NCBI GenBank assembly: GCA_014730295.1
Contig: WJIN01000262.1
Span: 1-40,172, forward strand
DNA length: 40,172 nt
Direction: 5' to 3'
Source: Promethearchaeota archaeon
Lineage (GTDB): Archaea > Asgardarchaeota > Lokiarchaeia > Sigynarchaeales > SOKP01
Shown here piece by piece: positions 6,853 to 32,073 of the stretch. Under the pieces are notes generated by a model, which saw only the letters and a program-made list of their open reading frames with translations, had not been told where the DNA came from and searched no databases. The position numbers were made by a program, and so were the translations under genes. The first letter of the stretch is position 1. The number at the start of each line of letters is the position of its first letter.

Positions 6853-7998
6853 TTAGAAACATCTATGAATTACTTGTGGTCCCATCTCTTTATATTCGCG
6901 ACGTGTCACCCACATTCGGTGGAAAGTCTTCAAGGAACTCAGGATTGAGCCGCCAATCCAGACCGAATACATTCTTTCGGGTGGTGCGATAATCTTTACA
7001 TCAACAGATTCTGGGATTTGTTCCTTAATTTCCTTGGTAAGTCTCTCTTTGATACCAGGGAACATTGTGGAACCTCCAGATAAGACAATGTTGCTGTAGA
7101 GGTCTCGTCGAAGATCGACATCGCACTCTGAAATGGAATTCACAATAACGTCGTCTAAGGGCTCTAATTCCTTCCCAATGACGGACGGATTGAAAAAGCA
7201 TTCGGGCGCAAGAAATCTTTCTACTCCCACGTTAATGGTCTCTCCATCGGGCAACATGTAGCTCTTCTCCATGCCCGCTACTTTCTTGGAAAGCATCATC
7301 TCCTTTTCGGGGTCAATTGCGACATAGCACAATTTCTCTTTGATATCCCGAACAATTTCTTTCTCTGCGGATGTGGTAAACGAATACCCTTTTTGTCTGA
7401 GTAAGCGTTGTAAGTAGGTCGTGATGTCTCTGCCTGCGAGGTCAATTCTCTGAATCGCGTGGCTTAATGCGAATCCTTCGAAAATTGGGACAACGTGAGA
7501 TACACCGTCTCCAATATCAATTACGCATCCTGTCGTACGACCAGAAGCATATAATGATAAAACTGCTTGCATTGCGACATATAATGCCGGTACATTGAAG
7601 GTTTCAAACATTATCTCTGCCATCTTCTCTCGATTTGGTCGAGGATTTAATGGCGCTTCTGTCAATAATACAGGATGTTCGGAAGGATCGATGCGTAAAT
7701 CAGTGTAAAAGGTGTAGTGCCAGATTTTCTCCATTGCAGTCCAGTCTTCGATGATACCATGCTCGACTGGAAACATGAGCTTCAATACACCCTTCAATTG
7801 CATCGCTTCTTCTCCGATATAATATTCTCGGGTATAGTGCTCGACATCAGTCATGATTGACTCATATTTAGGATATCCGATGAGCGTTGGAAACACCGAT
7901 CGTGGCTGATCTTCACCAGCGAACCCATTCTTCGAAATACCAGTTCCGTTATCGACCACAAGGGCCTTAGCGTTGAGGAAACTTTCTTCTTCTGCCAT
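6853..7998 (-). CDS. Actin homologue (Asgard actin, Lokiactin-type)
   Basis: At 381 residues this is close in length to eukaryotic actin (about 375) and reads as actin from end to end. Phosphate-1 loop: [18 protein letters not shown] (residues 13-30). Hydrophobic region: [22 protein letters not shown]. Phosphate-2: [13 protein letters not shown]. Adenosine-binding region: [14 protein letters not shown]-terminus: [14 protein letters not shown]...VIHRCF, close to the eukaryotic IVHRKCF end. It should bind ATP and polymerise into cytoskeletal filaments in the cytoplasm. Asgard actins of this type are known to form filaments and bind profilin. Its GC content is visibly higher than that of the LRR region beside it. 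It has its own terminator and an AT-rich upstream region. Identification is very secure. Confidence 0.97.
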
Positions 7999-12565: not shown

Positions 12566-13144
12566 CTAATTCTCTCTAATATAATCATCAATGAATAATT
12601 CCATTAATACCTCATCATAATATTGATCGTTGATAAGAAATTGTTTTTTACGAATGCCAACGTTTTGAAAGCCCATAGACCTATATAGATGAAGGGCGCG
12701 TTCATTTGAAGAAAAGCAGCTTAATATTATTTTTTGTTTTCCGTTTAACTTTTTCGATTCTCGAATGGCAATATCGATTAATATCCTGCCAATTCCCTCA
12801 TCCCTATAATTTTTTCGGACAATAATTCCTAAGTTTCCCACATGTGACGCAGCATCCCAATCGACATTCGAGATTTCACATTGCCCTAAAATGTTATTCG
12901 GACGTTCTAAATTCAAATTCTCAGCAACAATACAAATTTCATTCAATTTCTTCAGGTTATCATACCAACTGTGCTTTTCAAACTGGCTTTCCACAGGAAG
13001 AAACACGGGAAGATAGATACCCTCTTCAACAACTTGGTTAAAATTTTTCCATACGGCATTGGCGTCTTTTCTCTTTACATGACGGAATATAACCTCATCC
13101 CCGTTCCTCAATATGAAGTCCTTGGGGTATAAATCTTCTTTCAT
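12566..13144 (-). CDS. GNAT-family N-acetyltransferase
   Basis: A 192-residue acetyltransferase of the GNAT superfamily, which moves an acetyl group from acetyl-CoA to an amine. The acetyl-CoA-binding motif A is LGIIVRKNYRDEGIGRILID (R/Q-x-x-G-x-G/A pattern; here RDEGIG). The later NERALHLYRSMGFQNVGIRKK segment is the typical motif B end with the Y/F-x-x-x-GF signature. The gene converges with the LRR gene (22-nt gap) and diverges from the winged-helix gene at 13192. The substrate is unknown; similarity to RimJ/PhnO-like protein or small-amine acetylases is only general. Confidence 0.85.
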   Translation of the reverse strand: MKEDLYPKDFILRNGDEVIFRHVKRKDANAVWKNFNQVVEEGIYLPVFLPVESQFEKHSWYDNLKKLNEICIVAENLNLERPNNILGQCEISNVDWDAASHVGNLGIIVRKNYRDEGIGRILIDIAIRESKKLNGKQKIILSCFSSNERALHLYRSMGFQNVGIRKKQFLINDQYYDEVLMELFIDDYIREN

Positions 13145-13191
13145 TAGGTAAATATAAGTTTTTAAATAATAAAATTGTTTATAATGATATT

Positions 13192-13623
13192 ATGGGAGAT
13201 GATGAGAAAAAGGAAAAAATGAGATCCTATTTTGAAGAAGCCGCGAAGGGAAAAGAAAAAAAGGTTGCCAAGGATTTGGTTGAATTAAAGCATGTAGAAA
13301 CAGAGAAACAAAAAGCTAGCGAAGAGACGATGAATCTAGCACAAACTTTAAAGAACGAGGTCATTACCCGTGACAGTTTTGATAAACTGAGTAATGATGA
13401 AATTACCATAATCGAAAGTATTCAAGATAAGCGTATGTTTTTGAATCGTATTGCGATTATTGCAAATCAGAGTCGGATACCAATGGGTAAAGACCCTTTC
13501 AAGAAGGCAGATCTTGAAGAGATTCTAGATACCCTTATCGCTAAAGGATATGTGAAAACTGAATTAGTAGAAGAGAATCGAGTCTATTATCTTTCCGAAA
13601 AAGGACGATACCGCATACAATAA
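13192..13623 (+). CDS. Small protein with charged coiled coil and C-terminal winged helix
   Basis: A 143-residue protein. The first half is highly charged and helical (many K, E and A residues, probably a coiled coil). Residues about 70-143 look like a winged-helix domain: NDEITIIESIQDKRMFLNRI, then LEEILDTLIAKGYVKTE and the wing VEENRVYYLSEKGRYRI. It may be a nucleic-acid-binding or transcription-associated protein. It is convergent with rpoK, 24 nt away. I cannot assign a family. The ATG follows a GATATT leader with no obvious ribosome-binding site. Confidence 0.65.
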   Translation: MGDDEKKEKMRSYFEEAAKGKEKKVAKDLVELKHVETEKQKASEETMNLAQTLKNEVITRDSFDKLSNDEITIIESIQDKRMFLNRIAIIANQSRIPMGKDPFKKADLEEILDTLIAKGYVKTELVEENRVYYLSEKGRYRIQ

Positions 13624-13647
13624 AACAAGAAAAGAGAGAAATTATAA

Positions 13648-13953
13648 TTAGTCTTTCTTCAAAATAAGCTTATTGATCGGAATATCTTGAAATTCGTGGC
13701 TTGTTGGATGTTCCCGACGTATGGTTAAGGGAAGGATGCCTGATTTGAGCTCAAGTTGAGCTATCTTAATTGGGTCAATCACGTCTTTCGGTTTTTCTAC
13801 TAGGATTGGAGCACCAAAACTAATTTGTAAGGCACGCGCACCAACAATTCTGGCCTTCTCATATCTCGTGAGAAATATCGGGCCAATCTTTACATACTTT
13901 TTTGTATTTTTGTATTTCTTTCGCAATTCTCGAGATTCTAAAAAGCTGGACAA
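13648..13953 (-). CDS. rpoK: DNA-directed RNA polymerase subunit K (RPB6 homologue)
   Basis: A 101-residue homologue of archaeal RpoK and eukaryotic RPB6, a core subunit that clamps the C-terminal tail of the largest RNA polymerase subunit. The conserved block is clear: LTRYEKARIVGARALQISFG, then APILVEKPKDVIDPIKIAQLEL and the ending LPLTIRRE...FQDIPINKLIL. The N-terminus (SRELRKKYKNTKKYVKIGP) is longer than in many archaea. The frame has no ATG; TTG 13953 is the first usable start after an in-frame TGA. It is separate from other polymerase genes. Secure. Confidence 0.95.
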   Translation of the reverse strand: MSSFLESRELRKKYKNTKKYVKIGPIFLTRYEKARIVGARALQISFGAPILVEKPKDVIDPIKIAQLELKSGILPLTIRREHPTSHEFQDIPINKLILKKD

Positions 13954-14113
13954 GATGAATCAAACTCAGAAAAAGGTAATTGATTGTTTAAATATAGCAT
14001 TTCATTTAATTTTTATTATTTTTACACACTATCTATATATCACAAAGATTTGCAAAAAGCGATTGAAAAAGATCCACTGAGAAAATCAATGGAATCCAGG
14101 AAATTATAAAAAA

Positions 14114-14124
14114 TGGTGCGCGGA
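14114..14124 (-). tRNA. Candidate 3' acceptor strand plus CCA of the split tRNA-Val
   Basis: The minus strand reads TCCGCGC-A-CCA: a perfect 7-nt complement of the acceptor strand GCGCGGA of the tRNA 5' part at 14336-14385, followed by discriminator A73 and an encoded CCA. It lies about 210 nt downstream of that 5' part, beyond a complete tRNA-Val. An 11-nt match of this kind in such AT-rich DNA is unlikely to be chance. Confidence 0.5.
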
Positions 14125-14155
14125 GAGATGATTGAGAAAATTTCAATGTAATAAT

Positions 14156-14226
14156 GAGCCAGGGGAGGATCGAACTCCCGATTTTTGCGATGTGAACGCA
14201 ACGTCATGCCACTAGACCACTGGCTC
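14156..14226 (-). tRNA. tRNA-Val (anticodon CAC)
   Basis: A complete 71-nt cloverleaf. The acceptor GAGCCAG pairs perfectly with CTGGCTC. The D arm begins GTCT and contains A14 and a GG pair. The anticodon stem TTGCG/CGCAA encloses TTCACAT, giving anticodon CAC (valine, GTG codons). The variable loop is AAATC, and the T arm GGGAG-TTCGATC-CTCCC is canonical. The discriminator is A and CCA is not encoded. It lies between the two parts of another tRNA-Val. Confidence 0.93.
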
Positions 14227-14335
14227 CGATTTATAAGCCTAAAAGTAATACAAAATTTTAATATTTACCGAAATGAATTGATTTCGGTTTGGATGTCGTC
14301 GATCTTGAGGGGTTGAATTTGAAGGCGATGATGAC

Positions 14336-14385
14336 GACCTACACGGTGTGAACGTGTCGTTATAACCGAGCTAAACTATCCGCGC
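14336..14385 (-). tRNA. 5' part (positions 1-48) of a second tRNA-Val (CAC), interrupted before the T arm
   Basis: Fifty nt fit tRNA positions 1-48. The acceptor 5' strand is GCGCGGA, the linker TA, and the D arm starts GTTT with A14 and GG. Anticodon stem ACACG/CGTGT encloses TTCACAC (anticodon CAC), and the variable loop is AGGTC. No T arm or acceptor 3' strand follows directly. A matching acceptor 3' strand with CCA occurs at 14114-14124. The intervening DNA has a GTCGTC/GACGAC pairing and a CCGAAAT/ATTTCGG hairpin, which could belong to an intron. It may be an intron-containing tRNA or a broken remnant. Confidence 0.6.
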
Positions 14386-14580
14386 ATTTTTTTCAAAAAT
14401 AATAATATGTTTTTTCAATTAAATTTACTGCTTTTATGGCATTTTAAACTCTCAGCAGTTTAATTATTAAAAAGATATTAATTGATTTTAAGTTAATCAG
14501 TAGACTCTATCATTTTATATATCTATCTACATTCAGTATAGATGACGTATCAAAACCGAATCTAAATCAATCTAATTCCT

Positions 14581-16926
14581 ATGGCATCCGAGAAACAAGA
14601 GTTTATCTCTCATCCGCTTATTCAAGAAGAGACAGTGCTCAGACGATCCTATCAAGAAAATATTTTTATCAATTGTTTAAATAAAAATTCATTAGTGGTT
14701 ATCCCAACTGGCTTAGGTAAGACAATAATCGGTCTAATGCTTGCGGTTCATAGACTAACCGAAGTGCCGGATTCACGAGTTATATTTCTCGCACCCACTA
14801 AACCATTAGTAAACCAACATTATGATTCATTTCGAAATCTGACGGCTTTAAACCACGATTCATTACAACCAATCACCGGCACTATATCGCCGGATGAGAG
14901 AAAACAGCTCTGGCAAGATCTAAAGATCGCGTTTATGACACCCCAAGTTCTTCAAAACGATATCATTTCTAATCAGTACACTTTAAAAGATGTGTCCTTA
15001 ATTATATTTGATGAATGCCATCGAGCAGTGGGGGATTATGCGTATTGTTTTATTGCGCAAAAATATATGGAAAATTCTACAAATCCTCAAATCTTAGGAT
15101 TAACCGCAAGTCCAGGCTCAGAGAGCGAAAAAATCCAAGAGATAAAGCACAATTTATTTATCGATCATATCGAAATCCGCACGGAAAATGATTCAGATGT
15201 GAAGCCCTATATCCATAATGTTGATAATGAATGGATTAAAGTCAAGCTCCCAAAAGAATTTGCGGAGATACAAAATATAATCTCGGAAAAGCTAAAAACC
15301 ATTTATAAATACTTGAAAAATCAAGAACTTCTCGATTCCTATAATATCAATAAGGTCACGAGAAAAGATTTATTAAAATTAAACAAAATAATTAACGGAA
15401 AAATTTCCAGGATTCGGTCTGATGAAGAAAAATTTGCTTTATTCTATGCGAAAAAATTACAAGCCAATGCCATCCGTCTCTCTCATATGAGCGAATTAAT
15501 TGAAACACAAGGCATTAACGCCCTGAAGGACTATTTAGACAAAAATCAAGAAAAAATTAAACAAAATAAGGCTAATAAATCACTTCAAGAATTATTCAAG
15601 GATAATGAGTTTAAGAGACTAATAAACCTTACTAATCAAATTCAATCGAAAGGAATCGTCCATCCCAAAATTGAAAAGCTGAATGAATTATTACGCGAAC
15701 AACTTATCAATAACCCACTCTCTCGTATCTTGGTTTTTTGCCATTATCGAGATTCGGTCAATAATATCGTCAAATATTTTAAAGATGATTCAATAGTAAA
15801 AGCGCATAAATTTGTAGGTCAAGCAAATAAGGGCTCGGATAAGGGATTAACTCAAAAGCAACAAATTGAACTCTTGGAGGAGTTTAAGGAGGGAATTTAT
15901 AATACCCTTGTGGGAACTAGTGTCGCCGAAGAAGGGTTAGATATTGCCGAATGCGATTTGGTCGTTTTTTACGATGTCGTACCCAGTGCGATAAGGTCCA
16001 TCCAAAGGAGAGGGCGTACAGGACGGAAAAAGGAAGGGAAGGTCTATGTACTAATGGCAGAAGGTACTCGAGACGAAGGATATTATTGGGCAGAAAAAGC
16101 GAAAGAATCTAATATGCGCAAGAATCTGAATAAAATAAAAAAGCTTCAACAAGCCACGGATTCTGAAGAACAAACGAGTTTAATGAATTATATTTCAAGA
16201 TCGGAGGAAAATGAAGGAAATAATGACGCCGAAAATGGGAAAATAACTCAAACAGAAAGAATTAAGGGAGCAGAAAAATTTACAATTATATGTGATAATA
16301 GAGAAACTGCTTCTCCCATCGTGAGAAAGCTTTCTCTTATGGGAATAAATCTGGAATTGAAGCAATTAGACCTTAGTGACTATGTAATTTCAGAGCGAGT
16401 GGGGATCGAACGAAAAAGCGGGCAAGATTTCCTTGATTCCATAAAAGATGGGCGATTATTCAAAGAATTGATTGAGCTTAGCGATAATTTTGAACGCCCA
16501 ATCCTTATTTTAGAGGGAGACCCCTTTAAAAATACGAATATCAATGCAAATGCGATTTATGGCGCGATTAGTTCAATTATTTTGAATTTAGGAATAACCT
16601 TGTATAAAACAACGGGTGGTGATGAAACCGCGACCTTTCTCTATCATCTTGCAAAAAAAGAACAAACTCACGAAACGACACCAGTAAAACTTAGATTTGA
16701 GAAAGCCCCAGTTGATTTAACTTATCTATTAGAATATATAATTGCGGGAATACCTGGAGTGAACACATTGCGAGCCAAAAGTCTTTTGGAAAAAATGGAA
16801 ACCCTTCAAGCGATATTTAATGCTGATATCGGTGATTTAATGCAAGTCGAAAATATAGGAAAAAAGATAGCTCAAGAGATATATAAAATAAGCCGTTTTA
16901 AATATAATAATGATAAAACTGCTTGA
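14581..16926 (+). CDS. hef: Hef: XPF/FANCM-type helicase-nuclease
   Basis: At 781 residues this matches the full archaeal Hef, which processes stalled replication forks and branched DNA and is the relative of FANCM/Mph1 and XPF. The N-terminal superfamily 2 helicase has Walker A IPTGLGKT (41-48), the DECH box (about 144-147), TASPGS, and the C-terminal motif VI QRRGRTGR. A linker follows. The ERCC4-type nuclease domain has the active-site signature VGIERKSGQDF (near 606-616; ERKxxxD) after CDNRE. Two helix-hairpin-helix motifs end the protein (IAGIPGVNTLRAKSLL; LMQVENIGKKIAQEI). No domain is lost. It is a lone gene with its ATG about 195 nt downstream of the divergent tRNA-Val 5' part. Confidence 0.96.
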   Translation: MASEKQEFISHPLIQEETVLRRSYQENIFINCLNKNSLVVIPTGLGKTIIGLMLAVHRLTEVPDSRVIFLAPTKPLVNQHYDSFRNLTALNHDSLQPITGTISPDERKQLWQDLKIAFMTPQVLQNDIISNQYTLKDVSLIIFDECHRAVGDYAYCFIAQKYMENSTNPQILGLTASPGSESEKIQEIKHNLFIDHIEIRTENDSDVKPYIHNVDNEWIKVKLPKEFAEIQNIISEKLKTIYKYLKNQELLDSYNINKVTRKDLLKLNKIINGKISRIRSDEEKFALFYAKKLQANAIRLSHMSELIETQGINALKDYLDKNQEKIKQNKANKSLQELFKDNEFKRLINLTNQIQSKGIVHPKIEKLNELLREQLINNPLSRILVFCHYRDSVNNIVKYFKDDSIVKAHKFVGQANKGSDKGLTQKQQIELLEEFKEGIYNTLVGTSVAEEGLDIAECDLVVFYDVVPSAIRSIQRRGRTGRKKEGKVYVLMAEGTRDEGYYWAEKAKESNMRKNLNKIKKLQQATDSEEQTSLMNYISRSEENEGNNDAENGKITQTERIKGAEKFTIICDNRETASPIVRKLSLMGINLELKQLDLSDYVISERVGIERKSGQDFLDSIKDGRLFKELIELSDNFERPILILEGDPFKNTNINANAIYGAISSIILNLGITLYKTTGGDETATFLYHLAKKEQTHETTPVKLRFEKAPVDLTYLLEYIIAGIPGVNTLRAKSLLEKMETLQAIFNADIGDLMQVENIGKKIAQEIYKISRFKYNNDKTA

Positions 16927-17080
16927 AATTTCGAATGTTTTACAGATATATTCAAAATAAGTCAAATATGTCAAATGTGAATTTTTTTCTGGATAAAATT
17001 TTCAAAATTTAATCAAATTCCATCAAAAATTTATAATCTATTTACATTACAATTAAAAGGGAGCTTGAATATTTATCATA

Positions 17081-17134
17081 TGAACTCAATCAGATTAAGA
17101 GGTGAATAAGTCACCAAAGTATCGGTGGAGTTCA
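17081..17134 (+). ncRNA. Candidate structured RNA element
   Basis: A 7-bp perfect closing stem (TGAACTC with GAGTTCA) encloses 40 nt. Inside are two mutually exclusive hairpins sharing CACC: GGTGA-ATAAG-TCACC and CACC-AAAGTATC-GGTG. A strong hairpin follows at once (17137-17166), and a TATA-like TTTATAATC lies about 45 nt upstream. The element has a higher GC content than its surroundings. It could be a small RNA with its own terminator, or, less likely, a leader with no plus-strand gene after it. Confidence 0.4.
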
Positions 17135-17136
17135 AG

Positions 17137-17166
17137 GGAAGGAGGTACCACTAAGTACTTCCTTCC
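17137..17166 (+). terminator. Strong 12-bp hairpin, probable bidirectional terminator
   Basis: Arms GGAAGGAGGTAC and GTACTTCCTTCC pair over 12 bp (one G-U pair) around a 6-nt loop. A T-rich tract follows on the plus strand. The hairpin abuts the stop codon of the minus-strand gene at 17167. It can end transcripts of the candidate RNA, of Hef, or of that gene. Confidence 0.65.
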
Positions 17167-17526
17167 TTATTTTATACTCATTTTACGTATTAATTTATAC
17201 AGACGAAATTTACTGGGGTAATTCTCTTTGCTGAGAGTCAATACCTTAAATAATACAGTTCCTCCGTTAGTGTAAGGTTTCCCGGGATCTAAACAGTGAA
17301 AATATGCATCCCCATCCTTTTTCTTTGAAAGTCCTAGATGAGCTGGTGGTACCCCTTCTCTAAGTGCCATCAAGAAGGGACCAAGACAAAATAATGCGTG
17401 CACACAAACTGCATCAGAGTTCTTAAGGTCGATAGTTGGACCCTTGATTACTGTTTTATCTCCCACACTATAAACGGGACATTTACCCTCTACTTTTATT
17501 GCTTCGAAAATTAAAATATGCTCCAT
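17167..17526 (-). CDS. TIGR04076-type small protein
   Basis: A 119-residue protein resembling the TIGR04076 family, whose function is not established. Family features are visible: an early VEGKCPVYSVGDKTVIKG segment (Cys-Pro then a VGD turn), the VCVHALFCLGPFLMALREGV core, HLGLSKKKDGDAYFHCLDPG, and a final strand GGTVLFKVLTL. The conserved cysteines (in GKCP, VCVH, FHCLDPG) suggest metal or redox chemistry. In other prokaryotes the family is often linked to anaerobic metabolism; that link is from general knowledge. It is monocistronic, and its stop is next to a strong hairpin. Confidence 0.75.
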   Translation of the reverse strand: MEHILIFEAIKVEGKCPVYSVGDKTVIKGPTIDLKNSDAVCVHALFCLGPFLMALREGVPPAHLGLSKKKDGDAYFHCLDPGKPYTNGGTVLFKVLTLSKENYPSKFRLYKLIRKMSIK

Positions 17527-17737
17527 TTTTATTTGTTGGTTTTAACCTACTTCTTAGAATGTATGAGATTTATTTATTTGCGTTCTTATTTAAATTGAAT
17601 CATTTTAATAAAATATACTTGTAGAATCCATTTTTAGTTTGAATTATTCTAAAGGTTTTTTGTTGAATATGTTAAGATGTTAAATTCATCAACATCTAAA
17701 ACAAAAAAAAATTATTAATCAATAAAGCTAATAATAT

Positions 17738-17745
17738 TATATAAA
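17738..17745 (+). promoter_or_regulatory. TATA box of the small GTPase gene
   Basis: TATATAAA is centred about 22 nt upstream of the GTPase ATG at 17764. With the usual archaeal spacing of 25-30 nt, transcription would start at or next to the ATG, so a leaderless mRNA is likely. No Shine-Dalgarno site is seen. Confidence 0.45.
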
Positions 17746-17763
17746 TTAATATTAAGAAACAAT

Positions 17764-18375
17764 ATGTCCGAAAATTCTAGAAGATTGCTGAAATTTAAGG
17801 TGGTGGTTGCTGGAGCGAAAAACGCCGGGAAAACAAGTTTAATTAGGCGGTATGCCACCGGCAAATTCCATTCTGATCTCTTATCTACGATCGGGGTCGA
17901 TTTTGAAACGAAAAAGGTCGAGATAGATGACACGGACATTCTCTTGAATATTTGGGACTTTGCAGGAGAAAAGAAATTCAGAATTTTACTTCCATCGTAT
18001 GTCTCTGGAGCTTCTGGAGCACTTATCTTGTATGATATCACTAATAAAGATTCCTTAATTGACCTGCATGATTGGATGAAAGTTATCAGCTCAGTCCCGA
18101 ACAATCCTAAAACAAAATTATTATTAGAAGCGAAGGGCGACCTTGAGGACCAGAGGGAGGTCTCAAAGGAGGAAGCGCAGAAAATATTTCAGAGGTATGA
18201 CTTCCAAGGTGAATTATTAAAAACGTCAGCGAAAACAGGGGAAAATGTAGAAAAAGCCTTTGAAATGTTAGGCAGGCAGATATTGGAAAATTCATTAAAA
18301 AAATGTCCTAATTGTGGTAATTTATATCCTATCGAACAAAAATTCTGTCAATACTGCGGAAGAAAAACTCAATGA
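17764..18375 (+). CDS. Ras-superfamily small GTPase with C-terminal zinc ribbon
   Basis: A 203-residue Rab/Ras-like GTPase of the expanded Asgard set. G1 is GAKNAGKTS (17-25). The switch I Thr is T42 in STIGVDF. G3 is WDFAGE (64-69), with Glu where Ras has catalytic Gln61. G5 is TSAKTG. The G4 motif is degenerate: NKxD is replaced by AKGD, which may alter guanine selectivity. After the G domain comes a four-cysteine zinc ribbon (CPNCG...CQYCG) in the place where eukaryotic homologues carry a lipidated tail, so attachment is likely through protein or nucleic-acid binding. It is a lone gene. GTP binding is likely; efficient intrinsic hydrolysis is doubtful. Confidence 0.93.
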   Translation: MSENSRRLLKFKVVVAGAKNAGKTSLIRRYATGKFHSDLLSTIGVDFETKKVEIDDTDILLNIWDFAGEKKFRILLPSYVSGASGALILYDITNKDSLIDLHDWMKVISSVPNNPKTKLLLEAKGDLEDQREVSKEEAQKIFQRYDFQGELLKTSAKTGENVEKAFEMLGRQILENSLKKCPNCGNLYPIEQKFCQYCGRKTQ

Positions 18376-18561
18376 GGGAGAATATACTCGTAGCTTTGGT
18401 GCTTGGAGGATCTACTACAAGGAATTGATTTATGGTTAATCTCTTAGAATTCTAATTTTAATTGAATTGCAATAGTAATGCAGCGAAGCATAACACAACT
18501 AAAAAATATAAAATAGAATTGAATATTTTATTGATCAAATTTGATCAATGAGCATCCTATT

Positions 18562-19632
18562 ATGAATTATGATATAGAAAAAGATATCAGTGAAATCTTA
18601 GACCGCTTAGAAAAGGATAATATATCGTTTAAAAACCAGACAGTCTTGGTTACAGGAGGCGCAGGATTTCTTGGTTCCTGGGTTTGTGATGTGTTAGTGC
18701 GACAAGGAGCCTATTGTATCTGTTTAGATAATTTTGCTTCGGGAAAATTTGAGAACATAGAACATTTGAGGGATCTTGCCAACTTTCGCTTCATAAACCA
18801 TGATATTTCAAAACCGATTTATTTTGGGTTAAGTAATCATCCTGAAGGAATATGCATTGGAGACATTAAGAAACTTGACATTGTTATGCACATGGCTTCA
18901 CGAGCATCTCCATTTGAATTTCGACAATATCCAATTCCCATATTAAAAAGTAATACTTTAGGGACGATGAATGCGTTAGGGATTGCTAAAGCTCATAATG
19001 CTCTTTTTTTCTATACAAGTACTTCAGAAGTATATGGAAATCCTCCAGATGAAGCCGTACCAACTCCAGAAACATATTTTGGTAACGTCAATCCCGTAGG
19101 TCCCCGTTCGTGCTACGATGAGTCAAAACGTGCGGGAGAAGCCTTTATAAAAGCCTATGAACTCCAACATAATATGCGGGCTAAAATCGTTCGAATATTT
19201 AATACGTCGGGACCAAGGATACGTTATGGACCGGAGTTTGGACGCGTGATCCCAAATTTCATCCACCAAGCTTTAAATGATTTAGATATTACGGTCTTTG
19301 GTGATGGGTCCCAAACTCGTTCGTTTACCTATGTAATTGATGAGATCGAAGGATTTTTTAAAATTGTGGATAGAGACGAAACATTAGGAGAAGTTATCAA
19401 TTTAGGTAATAATAAAGAATATACAATTTTAGAGTTAGCTGAAATTATTTTAGAATTGACCGATTCCAATTCAGAAATTATATTCAAACCCCTTCCGATC
19501 GATGATCCAGAGCGCCGATGTCCCGATCTTAGTAAGGCAAAACAATTATTAGATTGGGAGCCAAAGACTCCCTTGAAAGAAGGTTTAAAAAAAACAATTG
19601 AATGGTTTGAGGATTTAGAAGAAAATGAGTGA
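18562..19632 (+). CDS. NAD-dependent epimerase/dehydratase (UDP-glucuronate decarboxylase-like)
   Basis: An extended short-chain dehydrogenase of about 356 residues acting on nucleotide sugars. The Rossmann motif VTGGAGFLGSW binds NAD, and the catalytic set is visible in YTSTSEVYGNP and in SCYDESKRAGE (YxxxK). The later KIVRIFNTSGPRI and FGDGSQTRSFTYVIDEIEGF segments are typical of UDP-glucuronate decarboxylase and UDP-glucose 4-epimerase. The product probably feeds protein glycosylation or surface polysaccharide. ATG 18562 is preferred to TTG 18541. An extra N-terminal segment of about 30 residues precedes the Rossmann fold. It overlaps the next gene by 8 nt, so they are co-translated. Confidence 0.9.
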   Translation: MNYDIEKDISEILDRLEKDNISFKNQTVLVTGGAGFLGSWVCDVLVRQGAYCICLDNFASGKFENIEHLRDLANFRFINHDISKPIYFGLSNHPEGICIGDIKKLDIVMHMASRASPFEFRQYPIPILKSNTLGTMNALGIAKAHNALFFYTSTSEVYGNPPDEAVPTPETYFGNVNPVGPRSCYDESKRAGEAFIKAYELQHNMRAKIVRIFNTSGPRIRYGPEFGRVIPNFIHQALNDLDITVFGDGSQTRSFTYVIDEIEGFFKIVDRDETLGEVINLGNNKEYTILELAEIILELTDSNSEIIFKPLPIDDPERRCPDLSKAKQLLDWEPKTPLKEGLKKTIEWFEDLEENE

Positions 19633-20164
19633 AAACAATAATAATAATAATAATGAAAGTGATTATAAACGGAAATTAAAGGAAAGCTTTGAGCATTTTG
19701 ATAAATTAGTGACCGTATGTTTACTTGCGGGAATTCTTATAGTTTCCGGATTTATAGTCTATTATGTGTTAAATCCGGAACCACCCTTCACTACTTTTAC
19801 GATTCTAAATGAGGAAAAAGAGATGGGTAATTACCCCACTAACGCAACCGTAGGTGAAAATATTTCTTTTTATGTAGGAATAGGAAATTACTTGGAAAGA
19901 GAGGCAACTTTTGCTGTTAATATCTCTAAAGGTGATAATGAAACCACCTTAGGGTCGAATGGTGCTGAAAATGCAGAATATAATTTCACAACTCCCAACA
20001 TAACCCTTGATCATAATGAGGAATGGATTTCAGAACAACTAAATATATCATTTTACACTCCAGGAAACAGAACGCTAATCGTGGAACTTTTTGAGGTCAT
20101 ATCTCCATCGAAATCTACCTTTCTAAACATATTATTTCTACGCATTAATGTGACCGTGTCATAG
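19625..20164 (+). CDS. DUF1616-like membrane-anchored protein
   Basis: A 179-residue protein. A short Asn-rich N-terminus is followed by one membrane segment (LVTVCLLAGILIVSGFIVYYV, about 29-49; 20 residues shown as LVTVCLLAGILIVSG plus FIVYY). The exterior domain has the DUF1616 C-terminal pattern: FTILNEEKEMGNYPTNATVGENISFYVGIGN (here split FTILNEEKEMGNYP and TVGENISFYVGIGN), then a final strand pair with NEEW and LNISFYTPGN. It has many N-x-S/T sequons (for example NAT, NIS, NET, NFT, NIT), so it is probably an externally displayed glycoprotein. Overlap with the epimerase gene suggests a shared role in surface glycosylation. Confidence 0.75.
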   Translation: MSENNNNNNNESDYKRKLKESFEHFDKLVTVCLLAGILIVSGFIVYYVLNPEPPFTTFTILNEEKEMGNYPTNATVGENISFYVGIGNYLEREATFAVNISKGDNETTLGSNGAENAEYNFTTPNITLDHNEEWISEQLNISFYTPGNRTLIVELFEVISPSKSTFLNILFLRINVTVS

Positions 20165-20204
20165 AAATATCAACTCTAAGATTAAATTTAAAAGAAAAAT
20201 GAGA

Positions 20205-21587
20205 CTATGCAGAGCCGATTATCTGCATATCTTCAATTTTTACATACGGAGCCCAAAAGGACCCATATACTTTATAATCTTTAGAAATCGCCGAGATATT
20301 TTTAAAAAGATCCATTAAATTAATCCCAAACATTGTCTCATTGAGCGAATGTGAAATCTCTCCATTTTGTATAAGATTGCCATGTAAGATTAAGCCAGAA
20401 AAGTCTCCGGTCGCGATATTCGGCGAATCTCCTGTATAATCAAATAAGATACCTTTTTTAATATCGCGAATCATTTCATCTTTTGAAAGCTCTCCGGTCT
20501 TTAAGATAAAATTTGTGGAGCTTATAGAGGGTGTGGAACTATAAGAAGAGCGGACTGCATTTCCGGTACTTGTTATTCCCTCTTTCGAGGCGGTATAACT
20601 GTTGTGCAATAATCCATTTTTAAGGAAGTTCCCTTCTTCAACGATCATCTTATTCTTGCACGGTACACCTTCATCATCAAACGTAGAAGAGCCCGTTGCT
20701 CCATCAATTAAAGCATTATCTTCCACCGTGAGCATAGAAGATCCTATTTTCTTACCTCGTTTGCCTACTAAAAAGCTTCTTTTATATTGAAATGTTTCCG
20801 CATTGATGGCTGAAGCTAAGGGACCCAAAATTAGGCTTGAGGTCCCTTTTGGGGTTAAAATCACGGGAACCTTCAGATTTTTAATTTTTTTTCTATTTAA
20901 ATTTTGTTTAGCATCCTCTAAGGCAAGACTGGCTGTATCTTTTCCATTTAATTCTCGCAAATCTCGTACTGATTGTCGTTCAAATCCAGAAGATGTTTCT
21001 CCCGTAGAATCGTCTTTAACAATGATATTTGAACTAATGGAGGCAATGGTTTTTTTACCCGTTGTCTCGACTCCGTTAGAATTAAACACATAAGTTTCCG
21101 AATAATTTGTCTTGAATGTCGCTGACTGAGAGATTGCCAACTTATCTTCATCACATACTTCAATCAAATCAGCAACATATCGGGACGCTTCTTCAATTTT
21201 AAAATTTTCAATATTTTCATTATAAAGTGCTTTGACATTCGGATAATTGTCATAATGAGAAGGCAAGTCCTTAAAATCAGGATCTGGTGTTCCCGCATTC
21301 ATCATTTTAAAAGCATTTTTTATCATCATATCTAAAGCGAATTTTTCGAAGCGATTCGTATACGAAAAGCCGAGAGAACCTCGCTTATCAAATATACGTA
21401 CTGACATTCCATTTTTTGTTCCAACTTCGCTATTTTTAATCGCATTTTCTTCAATCTCAATATTCATATACCGATTAAGATCGATATATATTTCCGCAGC
21501 TTTAATCATATTGCCTTTTTGTTCAATTTCCTTTAATTTTGTCTCTGCAATATGATAATAGTCAATTTCTAGGTTATTCTTCATCAT
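20205..21587 (-). CDS. pmbA: TldE/PmbA-type subunit of the TldD/TldE protease
   Basis: About 460 residues of the PmbA/TldE family, partner of TldD in a heterodimeric metalloprotease that trims unfolded or modified peptides. There is no HExxxH motif, as expected for the non-catalytic subunit. Recognisable segments are VRIFDKRGSLGFSYTNRFE, LTPKGTSSLILGPLASAINA, and the C-terminal block with SGLILHGNLIQNGEISHSL. ATG 21587 is chosen because it overlaps the stop of the tldD gene (ATGA) and stands 6 nt after a clear GGAGG ribosome-binding site; the open frame extending to 21671 lies inside tldD. The two subunits are translationally coupled. Confidence 0.92.
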   Translation of the reverse strand: MMKNNLEIDYYHIAETKLKEIEQKGNMIKAAEIYIDLNRYMNIEIEENAIKNSEVGTKNGMSVRIFDKRGSLGFSYTNRFEKFALDMMIKNAFKMMNAGTPDPDFKDLPSHYDNYPNVKALYNENIENFKIEEASRYVADLIEVCDEDKLAISQSATFKTNYSETYVFNSNGVETTGKKTIASISSNIIVKDDSTGETSSGFERQSVRDLRELNGKDTASLALEDAKQNLNRKKIKNLKVPVILTPKGTSSLILGPLASAINAETFQYKRSFLVGKRGKKIGSSMLTVEDNALIDGATGSSTFDDEGVPCKNKMIVEEGNFLKNGLLHNSYTASKEGITSTGNAVRSSYSSTPSISSTNFILKTGELSKDEMIRDIKKGILFDYTGDSPNIATGDFSGLILHGNLIQNGEISHSLNETMFGINLMDLFKNISAISKDYKVYGSFWAPYVKIEDMQIIGSA

Positions 21588-23029
21588 TGCAATCCTCCTA
21601 CAACAATATCTTTGACTCTTATATATGGTCCTCCGTCTGAAACACGTACACTTTGCCCTCCTTTGCCACAATTCCCATCGGAGAATTTCAATTCCTTTCC
21701 GATGGCATTTATCCTATTTAACACTTCCAAGGTCATTCCTGAAAGTGCCACATCCCTCATCAATTCCTTTTTTTCTCCGTTCTCAATTTTATAGGAAAGT
21801 TTTGCTTTGAATTGAAAATTACCGGTGGTGGGATCTGTATACCCATAAGTGAAATCTTCGCAAAGAATACCTATTTTAGTATCGGCAATCATTTCATCAA
21901 GACTCCAATCTCCCGGTTCCAATTTAGTCACACCCATCCTAACTTGCGGTTTACTAGTACTAGAAGAGGCTCGACCATGACCATTGGGTGCCTGATTCAT
22001 GCGAGAAGCCGTTTCTAAATTATGGAGATAATTTTTAAATATTCCCTTTTCTATTATTGTTGTTTTTTGGGAGGGGATTCCCTCATCGTCAATAAAATAT
22101 GTTCCGTATAACTCATAAGGCAAGCCAAAATCCTTTCCAATCCCTAATCTAGGATCATCGATAACGGTTACATTTTCCCCAGCTACTTGTACCCCGATTT
22201 TTCCCTCTAAAATGCTTTCTTTATTCAACACTAAATCGGCCTCACAGGCATGACCGAAAGCTTCATGAATGAAAGTTCCTGTCAAACTTGGATCCATGAT
22301 AAGAGTGAACTTCCCTCCGAGTGGGGATTCTGCTTCTAATAATTCAACAGCATTTTTCGCAGACTTTTTGCTTAAATTTTCGGCTTTAGATGTTTTTAAT
22401 ATCTCCAACCCGCCAAGTCCACCAACAGAATTGGATCCTCTTTGAATAATACCATTTTTTTGAGCAAATATTGCTGAAAACATCCTTAATATTGATAGCT
22501 TCTGAGTAACTCTTGAGCCAAATGAATCAATATATAAACTAGTACCAGAAGCGTCAAAATACAAAGTATGAGTATTTTTAATGTATTCACTGTAATTATT
22601 AGCAATTTTCTCTTGGTTTTTTACCACCTCTATCTTCTCTGAAATATCACTAGTTTCTATTGGTTCTTTAGTTTCTAAATTAAAATTTTCTTGTAATGGT
22701 TTTTTTTCTTGAATCCTAAACTTGGTCTTGTTAAATGATTCTGAGAGGCGGGCAAGCTTTACAGCTTTTTTAAAATTTTGTTCAAGTACGTTTCGAGTTA
22801 AATCTTCTAATACAACGAAGCCCCAACCACCATTATAGAAAGTTCTAATTCCACATTTACTCGTCTCAAATGAGGAAATTTCTTTACTTTTCATATCAGT
22901 AAATTCAACTGAGGAACCTAATTTCAATTCTGCTCTAATGTCCCAATAATCGATTTTATTCTCAGAGAGTTGATCGAATTTACGGATTAATTTCTCATCG
23001 AGAATTTTTAGTTCTTCCGGAAGTTCCAT
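21584..23029 (-). CDS. tldD: TldD-type zinc metalloprotease subunit
   Basis: A 481-residue TldD homologue, the catalytic subunit. The zinc motif HExxxH is present as FIHEAFGHACEADLV (residues about 255-269). The rest follows the family: GGWGFVVLEDLTRNVLEQ near the N-terminus, DDEGIPSQKTTIIEKGIFKNYL in the middle (split here as DDEGIPSQKTTIIEKG and IFKNYL), and GNCGKGGQSVRVSDGGPYIRV at the end. It acts in the cytoplasm on small or unfolded peptides, and in bacteria matures microcin B17. It is first in a two-gene operon with tldE. The pair is complete, with both reading frames intact. Confidence 0.94.
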   Translation of the reverse strand: MELPEELKILDEKLIRKFDQLSENKIDYWDIRAELKLGSSVEFTDMKSKEISSFETSKCGIRTFYNGGWGFVVLEDLTRNVLEQNFKKAVKLARLSESFNKTKFRIQEKKPLQENFNLETKEPIETSDISEKIEVVKNQEKIANNYSEYIKNTHTLYFDASGTSLYIDSFGSRVTQKLSILRMFSAIFAQKNGIIQRGSNSVGGLGGLEILKTSKAENLSKKSAKNAVELLEAESPLGGKFTLIMDPSLTGTFIHEAFGHACEADLVLNKESILEGKIGVQVAGENVTVIDDPRLGIGKDFGLPYELYGTYFIDDEGIPSQKTTIIEKGIFKNYLHNLETASRMNQAPNGHGRASSSTSKPQVRMGVTKLEPGDWSLDEMIADTKIGILCEDFTYGYTDPTTGNFQFKAKLSYKIENGEKKELMRDVALSGMTLEVLNRINAIGKELKFSDGNCGKGGQSVRVSDGGPYIRVKDIVVGGLQ

Positions 23030-23116
23030 ATCCTTTGCCTTTTATAGTTAGACTATAGAATTTTTATTTGTAAATACTTAAAAAGATCTTGGTAAAAAGG
23101 CTAAAAAAGTTTGCTT

Positions 23117-23377
23117 TTATAATTCAAATTTCGTTATGGAATAGAAATGCTGACCATCGTTAATCTGAGATTTATGCTCCTTTTTTTTTTCTTTTAATCG
23201 TTTACTTATTTCTATCGCTTGCCTCGTTGAACACTCTTGAGAGAATTTAGAGGAATTTTTAAATGTAAAGGTTTTATTACATTTCCAACACTTTTTTTTT
23301 TGTATTTGCTTCCAAGAATAATACCACTCTCCACAGTGATAACATCTAAAAAAATAAAATTTCTTGATATTGTCCAT
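23117..23377 (-). CDS. Small zinc-ribbon protein (DUF1922-like)
   Basis: About 86 residues from ATG 23377 (MDNIKKF). A zinc ribbon is formed by CYHCGEWYY and CWKCNKTF, two CxxC pairs about 16 residues apart, followed by a basic helix (QAIEISKRLKEKKKEHK). This resembles archaeal DUF1922 proteins, which have a short rubredoxin-like ribbon and a helix of the AxExVRxLQ type. The role is unknown; nucleic-acid binding is plausible. An upstream TTG/ATG extension to 23404 adds only a hydrophobic stub. It lies downstream of the tldD promoter side and is transcribed leftwards from the shared promoter region at 23405-23553. Confidence 0.65.
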   Translation of the reverse strand: MDNIKKFYFFRCYHCGEWYYSWKQIQKKKCWKCNKTFTFKNSSKFSQECSTRQAIEISKRLKEKKKEHKSQINDGQHFYSITKFEL

Positions 23378-23443
23378 TTGAAGGAATAAAAACGCATTTA
23401 TCAAAAAATAGTAGAGAGTGAAGATTTAATGATTTTTATATAT

Positions 23444-23465
23444 ACCTATTTAGCTATTAATAGGT
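23444..23465. promoter_or_regulatory. Palindromic candidate operator upstream of the phosphate-transport genes
   Basis: Arms ACCTATT and AATAGGT are separated by 8 nt in the divergent region between the zinc-ribbon gene and the DUF47 gene. A TATA-like tract (CTATATATATTATA, about 23489-23502) lies to its right. A repressor site for the phosphate module is plausible but not proven. Confidence 0.35.
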
Positions 23466-23565
23466 CAATCGAAAATTTATATTATCTATATATATTATAA
23501 TAAACAAATCAGAATTCGAGTCTTTGAGATATGAAAATTCTTTTTAAAAACATTTGTGGATATAT

Positions 23566-24228
23566 ATGAAAGCGATTGATAATGAAAGATTAGAAAAATT
23601 GGATATTGATGAACTTACACATACTTTCGTTGATATTATTAACAAACAAACTTCAATATTAATAGATGGAATTGAAAATCTAATTAATGAAGATTTTACA
23701 GAATTTCAAGATAATATGAATTATGTTATCCAAACTAGTACAGAAGTTCAAGTGAAAAAAAAATTTGAGTCGAAAATCTTTAAGTCACGACTAATGTTCA
23801 GCAAAGCCGATCGACTAAAGATTTTCAGTAAGATTAATGATATTAAAAACATCGGGGAATTTCTTGCCAACAAAATGCTTCTTTATAAAGTTGTGTTTCC
23901 CGATGAAGAGTTCAAGCTTCGAATAAGAAGTATTATTAAATCATTAAGATTTATTTCTGTAAAAATTACTGATGCGGTGAAATTTATTGGTTCTGATTTA
24001 GAAAAATCACACGATATTTGTGAAGATATTAAGGAAGAAAGACGGCAAATGCGACAAGAGGAATTTGGCTTATTAAAGCGACTATGGAATTATGATATGG
24101 ATTACTTATCTCGAACATTCTTATATCTTAAAGAATTAATAGAAGGGATTATGATGTTAGCAGACCATATTAAGGATTTTGCCGAATATATTCAATTCTT
24201 ATCAACTAAATATCTTATCTTTGATTAA
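23566..24228 (+). CDS. DUF47/PhoU-like protein, first of two flanking a PiT permease
   Basis: About 220 residues, almost all helical, with the repeated three-helix pattern of DUF47/PhoU-like proteins (for example FVDIINKQTSILIDGIENLI, RIRSIIKSLRFISVKITDAV, FLYLKELIEGIMMLADHIKD). Proteins of this family accompany PiT transporters and are thought to gate or regulate phosphate uptake; some bind iron clusters through E/DxxxD patches. ATG 23566 is preferred over TTG 23554. It lies 18 nt upstream of the PiT gene, so it is probably cotranscribed. It differs strongly from the second DUF47 gene at 25327, so the two are not a recent duplication. Confidence 0.75.
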   Translation: MKAIDNERLEKLDIDELTHTFVDIINKQTSILIDGIENLINEDFTEFQDNMNYVIQTSTEVQVKKKFESKIFKSRLMFSKADRLKIFSKINDIKNIGEFLANKMLLYKVVFPDEEFKLRIRSIIKSLRFISVKITDAVKFIGSDLEKSHDICEDIKEERRQMRQEEFGLLKRLWNYDMDYLSRTFLYLKELIEGIMMLADHIKDFAEYIQFLSTKYLIFD

Positions 24229-24246
24229 TTTAGGGGAGTCTAATTT

Positions 24247-25272
24247 ATTGAAGAATTTGCTGTTTTTCTTATTCCAATACTCATAACTATGGGAATCTCC
24301 CTAGCATTTTCAATCGGTGCCAATGATGAGACGTTATCAGCTCTGGTGGGCGCTGGAGTAATTAAATTCAAAATTGCACTCATAATTGGAGGGGCAGCAA
24401 CGGGATTTGGGATGATTTTTTTTAGCCAAGGGGTAGGAGAAACAGTTGGAGCAGATATTCTTGGGAGTGGAATTAAATACACGCAATTCATGCTCCTTGC
24501 TGTGTTAATAAGCAGTATTATATGGTTAATTATCGGTTCATTTAGTGGAATTCCACTAAGTTCGACACACAGTACTGTAGGGAGCATTTTTGGTGTTCTT
24601 ATCATTTATTCTATATTTGAGGGAGGAATTGATCCCGCAACCGCTCTTAATTATGAAAAATTATTTAATGTAGTGCTGGGATGGTTTCTCTCTCCTGCTT
24701 TCGGATTGATAATTACCTTTATATTTTTTAAGATAATTGCTAAATTTTATCTTTCTAAATTAAGGGGTTTGAATCAAATAGAAAAAGCTGAAAGAAATTG
24801 TAATTGGTTACTATTGATTGCGGTCATATTTGCAGAAATCTGGGTTGGAGCAAATTCCGCCGAATGTATCGGAATTTTCTATGGATTATACAATAGTAAT
24901 TTCATAGATTTAGGTCAATATTATATTTTTGTTATATTATGTGGTATATTTGTTTTTTTGGGCATATATATTGCCGGAAGATATGTAATAAGGAATTTAG
25001 CAAGCCAAATGACAAATGCACGTCCTTCTGAAGGACTAATCCTCCAATCATCATCCGCTATAATTCTGATGATCGCCACTTTTATGGGATTACCAATTTC
25101 TCATTCTCATGTTATAGTATTTTGTATAATAGGTTTAAATTTATCACAAAAGAAAGAGACAGACAAGAAAGGATTGCTTAAAATGGGCGCTTATTGGGTT
25201 TTAACCTTTCCGATTGCGGCCATCTTAGCGGGTTTTATCTATTGGAATTTTCTTATAATTGGATTATCGTAA
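24247..25272 (+). CDS. PiT-family inorganic phosphate transporter, candidate ATT start
   Basis: About 342 residues of the PiT (PF01384) family, cation-coupled phosphate permeases. The two duplicated family signatures are visible: FSIGANDETLSALVGAG in the first half and VGANSAECIGIFYG in the second, with SSTHSTVGSIFGV and GLPISHSHVIV as the paired GxxxS/T-H motifs. About 10 membrane segments can be traced. ATG 24289 would leave only 8 residues before the first signature, truncating TM1. The frame is open back to 24244, and ATT 24247 stands 8 nt after AGGGGAG and adds IEEFAVFLIPILIT, completing TM1. It lies between two DUF47 genes. Identification is secure; the start is inferred. Confidence 0.88.
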   Translation: MEEFAVFLIPILITMGISLAFSIGANDETLSALVGAGVIKFKIALIIGGAATGFGMIFFSQGVGETVGADILGSGIKYTQFMLLAVLISSIIWLIIGSFSGIPLSSTHSTVGSIFGVLIIYSIFEGGIDPATALNYEKLFNVVLGWFLSPAFGLIITFIFFKIIAKFYLSKLRGLNQIEKAERNCNWLLLIAVIFAEIWVGANSAECIGIFYGLYNSNFIDLGQYYIFVILCGIFVFLGIYIAGRYVIRNLASQMTNARPSEGLILQSSSAIILMIATFMGLPISHSHVIVFCIIGLNLSQKKETDKKGLLKMGAYWVLTFPIAAILAGFIYWNFLIIGLS

Positions 25273-25326
25273 ACTATATAAAATATATAGATTATATATT
25301 ACTAAAAAAGCGGATTAGCGAAGGAT

Positions 25327-26007
25327 ATGGGATCATTAATAGAGTATTTTAAAAAGGAAACAGCTAAAAGTGTACTAGAAAAAGCAATTGATCACGCGAT
25401 AAAAGTTCAAGAAAGTGTTGAGAAATTAGATGAAGGAGTAAAAATTCTGATCCAAAATAAAGATTTAGATAAAGCTCATAATATTCTTCATCAGGTTGAC
25501 TTGTTGGAAGGAGATGCTGATACAATCAGAAGAGATATATTGGCATTGATATCAAAGGGAGAGCTTAATCCGAGTGTACGAACAGATCTCTCACATTTAA
25601 TAAAAAGACTGGATGATGTGGCCAATTGTTCTACTGGTGTGGCACGGAGAATAAATACAATTCCGATAACATTTTGGGAACAATCGAGTAATAGATCAAT
25701 AGATTTGATAATTCAAATGATGGACAAAACAGTGGAATGTTCTAAATATTTGGACAAGATTGTATCTGATCTACTGGGAAAAAGACAAAATATAAGGGAA
25801 TTTTCTGAAAAAATTAATAAATTAGAACATGAAGTGGATATTTTAAATATTGAGTTAAGACGCAGTCTCCAGGAAACTCCTTATGATGTGAATAGTTTTT
25901 CAATATTCGTAGTTGGCAATACAATTGATATTATAGAAGCTATTTCGGATGCTATTGAGGCTGTAGCGGATTATATAATGTTGTTATTAAGTAGTACCAG
26001 CGTATAA
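25327..26007 (+). CDS. DUF47/PhoU-like protein, second flank of the PiT permease
   Basis: A 226-residue, all-helical protein of the TIGR00153/DUF47 type. The family pattern is clear: VDLLEGDADTIRRDIL (E-x-x-x-D metal-site helix), LSHLIKRLDDVANCSTGVAR, INKLEHEVDILNIELRR and IIEAISDAIEAVADYIM. It begins 54 nt after the PiT gene, and the three genes form a phosphate-uptake unit. The likely role is regulation or assembly of the permease at the inner face of the membrane. It is closer to the family consensus than the copy at 23566. It is followed by 140 nt of promoter region for purB. Confidence 0.88.
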   Translation: MGSLIEYFKKETAKSVLEKAIDHAIKVQESVEKLDEGVKILIQNKDLDKAHNILHQVDLLEGDADTIRRDILALISKGELNPSVRTDLSHLIKRLDDVANCSTGVARRINTIPITFWEQSSNRSIDLIIQMMDKTVECSKYLDKIVSDLLGKRQNIREFSEKINKLEHEVDILNIELRRSLQETPYDVNSFSIFVVGNTIDIIEAISDAIEAVADYIMLLLSSTSV

Positions 26008-26147
26008 AATATTTTTGGTTTTAGAATTTTTTCAATCACCTTTTTTCTATCTCTTTTCCGGATCCTTAAATTTAGTATCTTATTAATAAATTCACAAATC
26101 AACTAGTAAAAAATATATTTTCTATACAATCTTAATAAGAAATAGAA

Positions 26148-31674: not shown

Positions 31675-32073
31675 ATGGTCTCTAAATTAGAAATGGTCTT
31701 AAAAGAACTTAATACAAATGGTAATTTCCGCGCCTCGTTATTCTCCACTGGTACGGGATTAGTCTTAGCTTCTCAAAAGTCAGAAGAGATCGATGAAAGA
31801 GTTGTGGCTGCGATGTCTTCTTTATTAAGCGATTCTGCATATAAAGCCCGAGAAGAATTAAGCTTATCAAATTTATCATCTATGAAAATAAAATTTGAGG
31901 AAGATCTAATTATTATGGAAAATATACCAATGCCCCAAGAAGATAATCAATTTCTCTTAGCGATCTTAGCACGCGCACCGGATTCTGAAGAAGTAGAGAA
32001 ATACTACGACGATTTAATAGCGTGGGCAGTCGACAATGCGAGAGAAGATCTTAGAAAACTCTCCTCAATTTAG
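31675..32073 (+). CDS. Roadblock/LC7-domain protein
   Basis: A 132-residue single-domain protein of the Roadblock/LC7 (longin-related) fold. Features are the N-terminal helix (VSKLEMVLKELNT), the strand pair FRASLFSTGTGLVLASQ, a central helix VVAAMSSLLSDSAYKAREEL, then strands MKIKFEEDLIIMENIP and QFLLAILARAP, and a C-terminal helix. In bacteria and eukaryotes such proteins dimerise and bind small GTPases (MglB-MglA; LAMTOR-Rag). Asgard archaea carry many. It is monocistronic, about 13 kb from the small GTPase gene, so any pairing is speculative. The GGGAG site supports this ATG. Confidence 0.88.
   Translation: MVSKLEMVLKELNTNGNFRASLFSTGTGLVLASQKSEEIDERVVAAMSSLLSDSAYKAREELSLSNLSSMKIKFEEDLIIMENIPMPQEDNQFLLAILARAPDSEEVEKYYDDLIAWAVDNAREDLRKLSSI

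Follow-up and report, generated by a model that had tools for sequence, protein, structure and literature searches.

In tRNA remolding, a copy of a tRNA gene acquires a new anticodon, and the gene that previously carried this anticodon disappears; in the parts of the reports drawn on here, the process is described for animal mitochondria and eukaryotic genomes (PMC4783518, PMC3923123). Almost all archaeal chromosomes encode nonredundant tRNA genes, according to the portion of a further report used here (PMC3293823), so the way in which one such gene is exchanged for another is hard to see afterwards. The same source describes, at the tRNA-Thr(GGU) locus of Caldiarchaeum, a 5' tRNA fragment with exactly the sequence of a tRNA gene present in the population; an intact tRNA with this anticodon lies nearby, and introns are involved (PMC3293823). 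Among Asgard archaea, the tRNAs of Atabeyarchaeia and Freyarchaeia are described, in the part of the report considered, as rich in non-canonical introns (PMC11291895).

Here we analyze a stretch of 40,172 nt (the window), corresponding to positions 1 to 40,172 of contig WJIN01000262.1 from assembly GCA_014730295.1 of a Promethearchaeota archaeon, in which a complete tRNA-Val lies between the two remaining ends of another tRNA-Val. The explanation that we favor, and hold with good confidence, is that the native outer gene was inactivated when its T arm and the intron in it were swapped for a segment carrying a CAC tRNA derived from the UAC class, that is, isoacceptor remolding with replacement in place.

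Layout of the tRNA-Val site and its counterpart in BC3

The features of the site are collected in Table 1. At normal thresholds, the inner gene is the sole tRNA called at the site by ARAGORN and by Rfam; it scores 62.2 bits against RF00005 and carries the anticodon CAC, in agreement with the full tRNA-Val(CAC) of the original prediction. With relaxed thresholds in Rfam, the start of the outer gene (14385-14324) also aligns as a tRNA, with 22.5 bits, below the cut-off of 29. On the far side of the inner gene, positions 14124-14114 read as the exact complement of the outer 5' acceptor strand followed by ACCA, and the 12-mer CTCTCCGCGCAC of this outer 3' piece occurs once in the window when both strands are searched. 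Elsewhere in the window, inspection by eye revealed what we take to be an actin homologue (6853-7998), a small GTPase with a C-terminal zinc-ribbon-like tail (17764-18375), and a roadblock-like protein (31675-32073).

Table 1. Features of the tRNA-Val site, in coordinates of the window.
Feature	Position	Strand	Evidence or remark
Native tRNA-Val(CAC) 5' part, positions 1-48 (acceptor 5' strand, D arm, anticodon arm, variable loop)	14336..14385	-	50/50 nt identical to BC3 orthologue
Native tRNA-Val 3' remnant: last T-stem bases, acceptor 3' strand, A73, CCA	14114..14127	-	12-mer CTCTCCGCGCAC common to BC3
Acceptor 3' strand TCCGCGC of native tRNA-Val	14118-14124	-	
Replacement segment, 207 nt (BC3: 43 nt, T-arm remainder and intron)	14128..14334		BC3 match breaks at 14335, common 12-mer resumes at 14127
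Inner tRNA-Val, complete, intron-less, anticodon CAC, without encoded CCA	14155..14226	-	ARAGORN, Rfam
Possible fragment of about 20 codons, transketolase N-terminal-like, abutting the tRNA 5' part	14277..14335	+	Antisense-reading matches cluster in relatives' transketolase genes; profile match
Spacer between native tRNA gene and Hef (presumed leader/promoter)	14386..14580	-	187/195 positions as in BC3, gap-free
Hef/FANCM-like helicase-nuclease, synteny anchor	14581..16926	+	90% identical in BC3; named Hef nuclease or FANCM in relatives
RNA polymerase subunit K/Rpb6, gene flanking the tRNA site on its downstream side	13648..13953	-	PF01192, 33.9 bits

By its Hef helicase the contig falls near Lokiarchaeota, the nearest named relatives of this protein being labelled Promethearchaeota or Lokiarchaeota; Hef proteins P0003-P0007 are 81-82% identical to that of the window. 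The comparison with Asgard relatives proposed along with the original prediction was carried out, and the nearest relative with available DNA, the Lokiarchaeota isolate BC3 (locus L016), was found to have an intact tRNA-Val(CAC) gene at the same place and in the same orientation. The first 50 nt of this gene are identical to window 14385-14336, which upholds the assignment of that part to tRNA positions 1-48 with anticodon CAC. After those 50 nt the BC3 gene continues with GAGGG TTCGA, about 30 nt, and TT CCCTC TCCGCGC A; with the site placed by analogy to relatives, this is read as an intact T arm split near position 58/59 by an intron of about 30 nt, whose boundary is uncertain by a few bases. 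The gene ends with the same CTCTCCGCGCAC, so the acceptor complement with A73 and CCA noticed in the original prediction is the end of the outer gene, and the bases that follow the 12-mer are mostly common to the window and BC3. The encoded CCA of the window remnant may be fortuitous, since BC3 has CTA there.

The window and BC3 are collinear from 14335 to 26928 (12.6 kb, 89% identity), a match that ends inside the tRNA and resumes on its far side at 13940-14022 (95%); a second BC3 contig matches window 12567-14016 at 92%. This collinearity supports the proposal that a gene was broken by an insertion. In this comparison 43 nt of BC3 correspond to 207 nt of the window, and the portion lost from the outer gene is the T arm with its intron. 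The inner tRNA is intact. The spacer next to the outer tRNA differs from BC3 by 4%; at that rate, 50 unchanged nt such as those in the outer 5' part would occur with a probability of about 0.1, so that their identity hardly argues for constraint. In BC3 a segment of about 2 kb that the window lacks (L016 84-2100) separates the tRNA from the rpoK side; it contains a repetitive reading frame of 401 aa (362-1567).

Descent of the inner tRNA and content of the insert

The inner tRNA was compared with 46 tRNA-Val forms, giving best identities of 61/72 for UAC genes, 59/72 for GAC genes and 56/72 for any CAC gene. Its identity to the native CAC gene of BC3 is 49/72. For the phylogenetic analysis, trees were built with FastTree and IQ-TREE from 49 rows and 76 columns with the anticodon columns masked; they rest on about 70 sites and are weak, with moderate support, and intron-bearing tRNAs were spliced by hand, the boundaries being uncertain for BC3 and L132. 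In these trees the inner tRNA and four tRNA-Val(UAC) genes, that of BC3 included, make up a clade of five (FastTree 0.864, UFBoot 84). This clade sits next to L137 (0.791 and UFBoot 66), with values of 0.875 and 66 for the wider clade of six, and five native CAC genes located beside Hef form a separate clade of their own (FastTree 0.971, UFBoot 100). By sequence comparison, the inner gene groups with Lokiarchaeal tRNA-Val(UAC), at moderate support. By the criterion applied to remolding, it is nearer to another anticodon class (UAC) than to its own CAC class, and with 49/72 identity to the native gene and a place among UAC genes it does not fit the description of a second copy of the outer tRNA.

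A weaker alternative would derive the inner gene from the intron-less CAC genes of the GTCTAG type, present in 18 of 227 genomes of the phylum, none of those compared exceeding 56/72. Counting against descent from the UAC class, the T arm of the native CAC gene of L134 matches that of the inner gene letter for letter.

No donor of the inner tRNA together with its flanks was found in the 227 phylum genomes, in which the strong matches to the insert correspond to tRNA and the best tRNA-free match is a 37-nt A+T-rich spacer (E 6.4e-5). Phage and plasmid collections yielded no match over 80% of the insert, with 10 and 8 records, respectively, showing short matches at E 0.2 or worse, and no exact match of two insert probes was found in viral contigs.

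The upstream part of the insert had been considered as the end of a frame read on the same strand as the tRNA, and this candidate was rejected, as its matches lie instead antisense to transketolase genes. The 26-residue query in this antisense reading matched 13 of 58 genomes at E 1 or better, and 10 of the 15 match places listed, five loci (L187-L191) among them, are inside transketolase genes in antisense orientation. The sense reading scored 9.1 bits (E 0.049) against a transketolase profile, the best of 1556 window pieces, through a match that extends 7 nt into the tRNA; 9487 pieces from the shuffled insert reached at most 4.8 bits. This profile was built from 15 of 16 loci (L199 was left out because it had no frame with the chosen motif), for a family selected after the matches were seen, and a first profile from 2 transketolases ranked the same piece third, with E 1. 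At the DNA level, the comparison of the piece with the five transketolase loci was not better than with shuffles. A 24-residue piece had no match in Pfam or PDB, a 21-residue piece a single match (E 0.69) in the 227 genomes, and the 26-residue query none in phages, and PF00456 was not found in BC3. The identification of about 60 nt at 14277-14335 as a plus-strand remnant of a transketolase gene is suggestive only, and such a remnant could possibly be filler DNA at the break.

Fate of the outer gene and competing readings

For the favored replacement we infer an order of events in which the native tRNA-Val(CAC) would have been disabled as the 207-nt segment took the place of the 43 nt formed by the T arm and its intron. 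The intron-less tRNA brought by the segment, belonging to the UAC class by descent, would serve GUG codons, and since its anticodon is now CAC, it most likely fills the role that the native gene had. Its expression could depend on its own A+T-rich leader or on read-through from the native promoter. In this reading the inner gene would be the only CAC gene of the organism; on the evidence of one contig, an intact native gene may nevertheless lie elsewhere. The coexistence of a broken native gene with a complete tRNA of other descent and the same anticodon points to a replacement in progress and not to an interleaved gene.

Alternatively, the site could be the remnant of the integration of a mobile element into a tRNA gene, as proposed for the tRNA-Thr of Caldiarchaeum, a possibility to which we assign a low probability. 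The 5' tRNA fragment beside an intact tRNA resembles that case, in the part of the source considered (PMC3293823), and BC3 has at the same site, downstream of the tRNA, the further segment of about 2 kb with its 401-aa frame. However, an insert of 207 nt is too short for an integrase gene, its borders show no repeated tRNA end, given the single occurrence of the outer 3' 12-mer in the window, and no substantial matches were obtained in the phage, plasmid and viral collections.

Less probable still is an assembly artefact, by which two sequences would have been misjoined within one contig. The evidence does come from a single contig, and the altered stretch coincides with a tRNA, a kind of site at which repeats can lead assemblers astray, but both sides correspond to the same locus in BC3, with the acceptor remnant and the bases downstream of it at the expected place, so a misjoin would need to have inserted 207 nt and then returned to the same site.

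The original prediction had also contemplated a large intron or split arrangement enclosing the inner tRNA, and a T arm shared between both tRNAs. Just ahead of the outer acceptor strand the window reads ATCTC where BC3 reads CCCTC, with C61 and C62 gone; the 5' strand of the outer T arm is absent from the window locus, and no full five-base partner for ATCTC was found within the insert. Three hairpins with a perfect 5-bp stem and a 7-nt loop exist in the insert, two of them being the anticodon and T arms of the inner tRNA and the third an A+T-rich structure without TTC, in line with the earlier observation that the only canonical T arm in the interval is that of the inner tRNA. The outer exons thus do not form a complete cloverleaf of their own, and only the T arm of the inner tRNA would serve. 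No strict 3-4-3 bulge-helix-bulge motif was found in 14101-14390 (100 shuffles average 0.8), and with relaxed rules 6 motifs were detected in the region versus a mean of 5.0 in 60 shuffles. In two registers of the relaxed motif the 5' cut falls at 14335/14336, the outer junction, although these would not give a tRNA because the 3' cut, at about 14210, lies inside the inner tRNA.

The absence of motifs is weak evidence, as the detector is incomplete: in its relaxed form it found a motif in 8 of 13 T-arm introns of relatives, one of them misplaced, and missed 5/13, the T-arm intron of BC3 being detected only if a 4-nt bulge was allowed, and the 3 positive controls of the strict scan were picked because strict motifs were already known in them. 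Lacking a T-arm partner and a useful hairpin, and with motifs at chance level, a spliced or hybrid outer tRNA is unlikely, though not impossible. Within the interval scanned, an enclosing large intron or split gene found no support, and the hairpin, pairing and splice-motif scans make a shared T arm improbable. An intron is indeed involved at this site, as had been suspected, but in relatives it is a short one in the T arm, lost here together with that arm, and not a large one around the inner gene.

A functional interleaved gene, in which the outer 5' part, the inner T arm (GGGAG TTCGATC CTCCC) and the outer gene's own acceptor strand would be joined so that the locus gives two tRNAs, is scarcely credible. 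In its favor, the joined product has on paper the form of a canonical tRNA-Val, A73 and the two outer acceptor strands have been kept, the fold of the region is more stable than that of shuffles (z -3.7, much of which the inner tRNA alone could explain), and two splice-like registers cut at the outer junction. Against it, two introns with suitable ends would be needed, and splice motifs were no more frequent here than in shuffles. It is likewise very improbable that one transcript yields two valine tRNAs, with the outer one borrowing the inner T arm or having a T arm supplied in trans. Most likely, the outer gene is a carcass, from which we infer that no expressed tRNA is produced.

The Hef-adjacent slot in relatives and known systems

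A scan of 30 Hef loci from genomes of relatives (L107-L136) detected a CAC tRNA starting 142 to 578 nt from Hef in 24 of them. Among the six loci without a match, L113, L120 and L127 have Hef at or near a contig end; L119 and L135 had no CAC tRNA within 900 nt beside Hef, so the slot may be empty there or the gene too altered for the scan; and L136 was missed by the scan and has a tRNA-Val(CAC) with a different acceptor stem according to ARAGORN. The native GCGCG acceptor start was present in 22 of the 24 slot tRNAs and, counting by eye, a T-arm intron in 12/24 and three introns in 6/24. The latter apparently lie at about 29/30, then 37/38 or 45/46, and 58/59 (L111, L118, L121, L122, L124 and L133), and none of these six loci gave a tRNA in ARAGORN. 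With its many introns, the native tRNA-Val(CAC) beside Hef could be used to test whether intron-burdened tRNAs are discarded for isoacceptor copies.

L130 and L132 have GGGCCAA acceptor strands in the slot where relatives have a GCGCG-type gene. The hand-spliced CAC gene of L132 pairs with a GAC gene (FastTree 0.85, UFBoot 85), a second GAC gene joining it with 82 in IQ-TREE, in a grouping absent from FastTree. By eye, the L130 gene is nearly the same as that of L132, and the sequence upstream of the L132 gene resembles that upstream of native genes. These data suggest that L132 represents a second, completed and independent replacement in the same slot, and that in-place tRNA replacement is recurrent at this slot. 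DNA searches for the native gene elsewhere gave no match in genome G019 and a 19-nt T-stem match only in G012, in a type of search that misses intron-split genes, as G016, which has an intron-bearing native gene (L108), also gave none. The tRNA upstream of Hef in L011 is likewise a CAC tRNA with a GGGCCAA acceptor strand.

Regarding described systems, the native gene of the slot resembles the tRNAs of Atabeyarchaeia and Freyarchaeia in having, in relatives, non-canonical introns, up to three; that study deals with other Asgard lineages, and nested or broken tRNAs are not described in the part of it considered here (PMC11291895). The tRNA-Thr locus of Caldiarchaeum is the nearest archaeal precedent found; both sites combine a 5' tRNA fragment with a nearby intact tRNA of matching anticodon, and introns are involved in both. 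There, as far as the portion of the source used here goes, about 1.8 kb with a putative recombinase gene separates the fragment from the intact tRNA, and the two are of one tRNA lineage (PMC3293823), whereas in the window the intact gene has a different descent and is enclosed by the broken one. Among the papers retrieved by searches of open-licence PubMed Central, no comparable pair of nested tRNAs appeared.

As in the remolding described in the cited parts of that literature, the inner gene of the window is closer to tRNAs of another class than to those sharing its anticodon. The difference is that an archaeal isoacceptor switch, from Val UAC to Val CAC, would be involved here, with the new gene inside the wreck of the one replaced. 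What is left of the old gene still surrounds the new one, and L132, from a related lineage, shows an apparently finished exchange in the same slot. Remolding itself was already known; what would be new is its occurrence in an archaeon, with the old gene still visible around its successor.
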